From positions 1 through 32,130 of the forward strand of contig CAJXOB010000013.1 of NCBI GenBank assembly GCA_913057955.1: 32,130 bases of DNA. Direction: 5' to 3'. A program made the position numbers and the translations under genes. The notes beneath the pieces are model-generated. The model ran no database searches. It worked only from the letters and a program-made list of their open reading frames with translations, and was not told the origin of the DNA. This stretch comes from an uncultured Gammaproteobacteria bacterium. GTDB taxonomy: Bacteria; Pseudomonadota; Gammaproteobacteria; PS1; Pseudothioglobaceae. Positions 30,797-32,130 of the stretch are shown piece after piece; the first letter of the stretch is position 1, and each line of letters begins with the position of its first letter.

Positions 30797-31312
30797 TTAT
30801 AGTGGCTTATAGTCTATGTCATATTTGAAATAACGAGGCCCAACCATCTCTATAGCCTTTTTACTTTGCCAAATTGGATCGGATGGTAGGCCCAATACAT
30901 TAACTGCTAAGCCATACTTTATTGTTTCGGCTGTAACAGGCGAGCCTGTATTAGCATCAAACATACAAATCAGGTCTGGCGTTGTAGCAAGGACATTATC
31001 TCCCTCGGTAGCAACCAAAAATTCATTTTGAAAATCAACTTTGGCTTCACGATTAGCACAATCATCAACACCCTCAAGCTTAACAATTCCCCTGTTATAA
31101 CCTCCCTCCATTCGCCTCTCAACATCTCTAACTCTTCCTTTAAAAAGATGTTTTCCATTTAGCTCTTTAACTAATATCTCATAAGATTTAAAGCCATTTT
31201 TTTCTATAATAGAGCCAATATGATGGATTAAAGATATACTTCCTTTAATTAAATAATCCTTACATTGTTTAGCTGAAACTGGATAAAGGCTGCACATTGC
31301 ACACCCACCCAT
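30797..31312 (-). CDS. DUF917 family protein (S-methyl thiohydantoin desulfurase-like), C-terminal half only
   Basis: The 171 residues visible are the second half of a DUF917 protein, whose members are normally about 350-370 residues. The match begins at MGGCAMCSLYPVS, where family members have a similar GG..A...YP.(S/T) segment. It continues through IKGSISLIHHIG, TTPDLICMFDANTGSPVTAE, GLAVNVLGLPSDPIW and MVGPRYFKYDIDYKPL at the true C-terminus. Upstream of 31312 the frame gives EIPPSL and then a stop (at 31331-31333), where some 190 residues of the N-terminal half should be, so the gene is cut by the sequence junction. Family members occur beside hydantoinase/oxoprolinase genes and peptide transporters. 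Internal Met at 31312 is not a real start. Convergent with dppF. Confidence 0.75.
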   Translation of the reverse strand: MGGCAMCSLYPVSAKQCKDYLIKGSISLIHHIGSIIEKNGFKSYEILVKELNGKHLFKGRVRDVERRMEGGYNRGIVKLEGVDDCANREAKVDFQNEFLVATEGDNVLATTPDLICMFDANTGSPVTAETIKYGLAVNVLGLPSDPIWQSKKAIEMVGPRYFKYDIDYKPL

Positions 31313-31445
31313 CTCAATAGGGGGTGATAATCATCCTGGACCTTGCCATGCCTATGTAGTCCCTCCTACCATCACGTTACAACAGGGGGCCCTCGAATCC
31401 TACAGTACGGTCCTTCTGACACTCAGAAGTAGTGTCAAAAGTGTC

Positions 31446-31827
31446 ATGAAGCGTGGCGAGTTCGGCTTACACGCCATCGACGACGATGTCATGATCGAGG
31501 CCGAGCTTCGCGGCCCCGCCCAAGGCTACAGCGGCAAGTACGTTGATGACATGTCGAAACAAGTCCTGAAGGACTCGTTGGTACAGGAGGCTCGCGCCAC
31601 GGAGCTCTTGCATTTCAACAGCAAAGGCGTGTGGCGGAAACGGCCTCGATCAGATGCCTCCCAGAAGACCGGGCGCTCTCCTATCACCGTGAGGCGGGTG
31701 GATGTCAACAAAGGCGATGACATTCATACAAACTATCGTTCACGACTCGTAGCCATGCAGCTGAAGGCCACATATACGCCGGGCAAGAGCTACTTCGCCC
31801 CGGCCCCACCTCTAGAGGCACTGCGAT
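31446..31827 (+). pseudogene. Copia-type Pol fragment A (region before the reverse transcriptase core)
   Basis: The frame is open from about 31,320, without a stop, to the frame break; the ATG at 31446 is only the first Met. It includes YVDDMSKQVLKDSLVQEAR, then LLHFNSKGVWRKRPR, GRSPITVRRVDVNKGDD, YRSRLVAMQLKA and FAPAPPLEALR, the conserved run that precedes the polymerase fingers in dinoflagellate copia proteins. After PPLEALR at about 31,824 the frame continues only as unrelated residues to a stop at 31,865. The piece is therefore broken, by deletion or assembly error, before the polymerase core. Confidence 0.75.
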
Positions 31828-32084
31828 CAGATCAGCCTGATCGACGTCAAGCGTGCGTATTTTAATGCGCAAATTGACCCAGAGGAGCCCGATACATACG
31901 TCCAGCTACCGCAGGAGGAGCCGGGCCACGAGAGCATGTGCGGACTGCTACTCCGCCATATGTACGGCACCAGGGCCGCGGCTGACGGATGGCAAGAGGA
32001 ATACAGCACCTCCATGGTCAAGCTCGGTTTCTCTCAAGGTGATGCGTCTCCCAACGTCTTCCGCCACCCCGACAAACGGATCCC
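31828..32084 (+). pseudogene. Copia-type reverse transcriptase fragment B (RVT_2 core, +1 frame)
   Basis: In the frame with codons starting at 31834 the sequence reads SLIDVKRAYFNAQIDPEEPD, YVQLPQEEPGH, MCGLLLRHMYGTRAAADGW and VKLGFSQGDASPNVFRHPDKRI. DVKRAYF contains the first catalytic Asp of the RVT_2 reverse transcriptase. The next expected segment (the VHGDD motif with the paired catalytic Asp residues) does not follow; instead the frame enters adapter-like sequence at 32085. Compared with the family, about 25-30 residues that normally lie between PPLEALR and QISLIDV are missing at the boundary with fragment A. Confidence 0.8.
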
Positions 32085-32130
32085 CGGTCTCTTATACACC
32101 TATACCCCTGCCGCCTACCACCACATCGTT
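32085..32130 (+). other. Sequencing-adapter-like end (Tn5 mosaic end, Nextera)
   Basis: CGGTCTCTTATACAC (32085-32099) matches 14 of 15 bases of the mosaic-end reverse complement CTGTCTCTTATACACATCT, and 16 of 19 over its full length. The next bases contain CTGCCG where the Nextera read-1 adapter also has CTGCCG (11 of 18 bases match over 32100-32117). The reverse-transcriptase similarity stops immediately before it. This looks like untrimmed, error-bearing adapter read-through at a contig end. Confidence 0.7.

Follow-up and report, generated by a model that had tools for sequence, protein, structure and literature searches.

Introduction

In a copia insertion the LTR comes first and is followed by gag, protease, integrase and reverse transcriptase (RT). 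Copia elements have been reported as the most abundant retrotransposons in the genomes of Symbiodinium (PMC5890265). On the technical side, another publication (PMC3842359) describes amplification as a process that forms chimeric reads and amplifies contaminating DNA. Both subjects meet at the end of the stretch of DNA analysed here (32,130 bases, hereafter the window), which covers the whole of contig C13 in a Thioglobus-like genome (G000) of 79 contigs and 1.57 Mb. In our estimate, with a probability of about 0.95, the last ~810 bases of this contig are a laboratory or assembly artefact, in which a fragment of foreign copia DNA was joined inside a native gene and is terminated by a sequencing adaptor.

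Results

The contig consisted of ordinary bacterial DNA until about 31,320; at this locus, marine Gammaproteobacteria and an isolate of Candidatus Thioglobus were the closest of the named relatives. An oligopeptide-type ABC transporter operon, so named on the basis of its ORFs, precedes the native C-terminal part of an S-Me-THD-like (DUF917-type) gene at 30797..31320 on the minus strand (PF20906, E=7.9e-58). The relatives L002, L003, and L004 share 80–85% identity with it over 171 residues. In all three the gene runs 186–192 residues further upstream in frame, while the copy in this contig ends at the junction with ~186 N-terminal residues missing. When the whole genome was searched with a full-length relative, the missing half was absent. 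In genome G032 (L016, which is also the locus of L003) a single match spans from the interior of the transporter gene through the S-Me-THD-like gene to the join; since the two genes adjoin there too, the gene order of the contig is natural up to the join. An ORF called from the internal ATG at 31,312 (30797-31312) would pass as a short complete protein, but it is really the C-terminal half of the longer S-Me-THD-like gene.

The junction between the bacterial and the foreign DNA was placed at 31320..31321 by base-by-base projection on L002, L003, and L004 together with the change point in G+C. Homology to the three relatives persisted to 31,320 and then dropped to chance level, with an uncertainty of a few bases, so that the start of the foreign part at 31,313 given in the preliminary description has to be moved to about 31,320/31,321. 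The abrupt change from AT-rich to GC-rich DNA reported there was confirmed. A recount returned the same numbers of G/C (14 in 31,201–31,260 and 41 in 31,921–31,980), and the maximum-likelihood composition change point was 31,287, with a 2-log-unit interval of 31,269–31,358. The G+C content of the tail was 0.57 versus a genome mean of 0.37 (SD 0.045, 800-base stretches), and the tail ranked as the GC-richest of the 800-base stretches of the 1.57-Mb assembly, almost all of which was taken into the ranking. The composition step at the junction is beyond chance. Further GC-rich stretches in the assembly were inspected and set aside: the one in C7 is an rRNA operon that looks ordinary, and the polysaccharide-synthesis-type gene in C42 and the HMG-CoA-lyase-like gene in C17 look like ordinary genes. 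Separately, a segment at the end of C42 (L070, 13666-14046) reached a maximum G+C of 0.58 in the final 200-base step and contained an open frame with MTKKDKHSTGPKTSKGKAVSSRNSLTHGLTARRW, with a composition unlike that of the genome.

The foreign GC-rich piece (31321..32084, plus strand) was assigned as a putative pol fragment of a copia-type retrotransposon from its G+C content of 0.57, its reading frames, and its match to RVT_2 (Pfam PF07727). One frame occupied 31,371–31,862 and a second ran from 31,834 on, and the residue blocks VDVNKGDDIHTNYRSRLVA, LIDVKRAYFNA, and MYGTRAAADGWQEEYS were carried across the two. The last two blocks, which the preliminary description had reported, were found again in the translation, in the frame of 31,201. 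In a single frame, the RVT_2 match lay at 31834..32061 on the plus strand and covered profile positions ~80–153 of 244, with the remainder past the contig end (E = 1.1e-4, 22.3 bits). With the two frames joined by an X at the break, ~130 residues from the adjoining frames matched positions 13–153 in the order of the profile, as in Ty1/copia LTR retrotransposons (E = 1e-5, 25.7 bits). The block VDVNKGD..YRSRLVA, standing ahead of LIDVKRAYFN and MYGTRAAADGWQEEY, is a further likeness to these elements. The earlier claim of an RVT_2 reverse transcriptase thus holds as far as the match goes, but both scores fall under the Pfam curated cut-off of 31.6 bits and the reading frame is interrupted near 31,830, either through damage to the copy or through an error of sequencing. 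Since neither score reaches the cut-off, the tail is likely, but not certain, to be a copia-type RT of the eukaryotic kind.

In contrast to a Ty1/copia element, the fragment is frame-broken and lacks the rest of RVT_2, and the window carries no LTR, gag, protease, integrase, or RNase H. The order gag-protease-integrase-RT-RNase H was not found, as only ~300 bases separate the junction from the RVT_2 match and no other Pfam domain was detected in them; whatever follows the RT would be past the contig end. Neither an LTR nor a target-site duplication was found at the junction, where pol-type sequence begins within ~130–300 bases and leaves no space for an LTR and gag; the contig does not reach the opposite side of the element. 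Because no LTR, gag, protease, or integrase stands between the junction and the RT, the tail is not an intact retrotransposon insertion.

RVT_2 was surveyed in 145 relatives and in 398 evenly drawn Pseudomonadota genomes, the genome under study being counted in both sets. The domain was present in none of the 144 other relatives and none of the 397 other Pseudomonadota, the sole match being this genome itself, and on these profile searches RVT_2 appears to be foreign to these bacteria. Protein searches of viral contigs and of plasmids recovered no relative of the tail, and no PHROGs family matched it at a meaningful E-value. The viral sequence L029 matched the degenerate DNA pattern for WVD[VIM]NKGD, but the matching site belongs to a structural gene of a phage, not to an RT. 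The sole match among solved structures was a catalase (E=0.089), which was judged to be chance. Among 368 other genomes of the class, no similar DNA was found beyond a 39-base match in G051, likewise judged to be chance. The residue motifs of the tail did not occur in the papers searched.

The contig ends in an error-bearing copy of the Nextera read-1 adaptor (CTGTCTCTTATACACATCTGACGCTGCCGACGA) and the bases following it (32085..32130, plus strand); the Nextera adaptor and index sequences used here are those that we take to be standard. Positions 32,085–32,117 read CGGTCTCTTATACACCTATACCCCTGCCGCCTA, with 8 of 33 bases mismatched and 13 consecutive bases identical. Since the adaptor sequence starts there, about 32,084 marks the end of the retrotransposon part. 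Among the clear adaptor copies this one carries the most damage, with 3 mismatches in the 19-base core and 8 of 33 overall.

Scanning of the whole assembly on both strands showed that all eight matches to the read-1 adaptor with at most 11 mismatches were located at contig ends, and so were all nine matches to the 19-base adaptor core with at most 3 mismatches. In local adaptor alignments of the 155 contig ends and 20,000 internal 130-mers, the maximum internal score was 16 and the end of C13 scored 17. Ten contig ends, including that of C13, exceeded the internal maximum; the nine others scored at least as high as the C13 end, and all the adaptors faced outward. Error-bearing outward adaptors were seen at the ends of C40, C4, C48, and C29 and at the starts of C71, C41, C46, and C10, and the start of C51 and the end of C35 are probably adaptor-capped too; the DNA adjoining these adaptors had native composition. 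At the end of C4 the adaptor was of the i7 side and was followed by TAGGCATG. The 8 bases past the read-1 adaptor were TCTACTCT, a single i5 index, at both the end of C48 and the start of C61, and this common index indicates that the assembly was built from a Nextera library. In its outward adaptor and in adaptor errors that would allow escape from trimming, the end of C13 resembles those of adaptor-bearing draft assemblies with chimeric ends, and the index shared between ends of this assembly is a further likeness. All surviving copies bear errors, as would be expected had a trimmer taken the clean ones.

A further end deserves mention. Contig C61 (L089, 1-~800) starts with an error-bearing Nextera adaptor including the i5 index AGAGTAGA, followed by ~600–800 GC-rich bases (0.57) with a weak match to WS_DGAT_C (E=1.6e-4), and this start is probably a second foreign chimeric end. 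Foreign sequence was found at one adaptor-capped end of the genome and is suspected at one more.

Discussion

The adaptor at the end of C13 is new relative to the preliminary description and is decisive. Alone, it is no proof of an artificial junction 764 bases further in, because most of the other adaptor-capped ends have native composition (G+C 0.33–0.40). Taken together, an outward adaptor at the contig end, a gene that is interrupted at the join and whole in relatives, and an element so truncated that its 5' parts are missing strongly support the assembly chimera that had been suggested earlier. The cut gene, the composition jump, the RT fragment, and the adaptors at this and other contig ends were directly observed. 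In the mechanism that we propose, a fragment of foreign, eukaryote-type copia DNA would have been joined to bacterial DNA within the native S-Me-THD-like gene, either during amplification, during library PCR, or at assembly, and the contig would then have been extended through the foreign piece as far as the Nextera adaptor that terminates a library fragment. The exact joining step was presumably an amplification or PCR chimera rather than an assembler join.

A variant of the same explanation is that the assembler made the join purely through a shared k-mer, with no chimeric molecules involved. The poorly cleaned contig ends of this assembly would agree with such an origin, but the two sides would need a common k-mer of ~20 bases or more, nothing suggests one, and the bacterial homology ends at 31,320, give or take a few bases. 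A shared k-mer as the sole cause is rather unlikely, and less likely than a chimeric molecule.

It is very improbable that the join is artificial but that the tail comes from a mobile element of a bacterium or phage and merely resembles RVT_2. The RVT_2 score would allow this, as it stays under the curated cut-off even with the frames joined. The match nevertheless continues from one frame into the next in the correct order with E = 1e-5, no meaningful PHROGs family, plasmid match, or viral-contig relative was found, and the 368 other genomes of the class held no similar DNA save the 39-base, chance-like match.

Least credible of all is the real transfer of a retrotransposon fragment from a dinoflagellate or other eukaryote into the bacterial chromosome, by which a eukaryotic (perhaps dinoflagellate) copia fragment would have broken the S-Me-THD-like gene and the contig would have acquired its adaptor end as other contigs did: the junction is sharp and lies within a gene, as that of an insertion would, but the ~300 bases from junction to RT hold no LTR, gag, protease, or integrase, the RT frame is broken, the other half of the interrupted gene and the far junction of the element are absent from the assembly, the relatives have no RVT_2, and the adaptor follows directly on the foreign piece at the contig end.

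Under the artefactual reading, the source of the foreign DNA is a separate matter. The motifs of the tail would fit dinoflagellate copia elements, and a dinoflagellate source is plausible as a lead. The suggestion that a dinoflagellate was the host or culture partner of the bacterium does not follow, as stray or co-amplified library DNA explains the tail.

The tail of this contig matters mainly as a warning and is not a gene transfer. In a public genome listed as 97.5% complete with 1.4% contamination, about ten contig ends still bear Nextera adaptor that was not trimmed off, and at least one tail is foreign and chimeric. Mining of the contig ends of such drafts could mistake a tail of this kind for a eukaryote–bacterium gene transfer.
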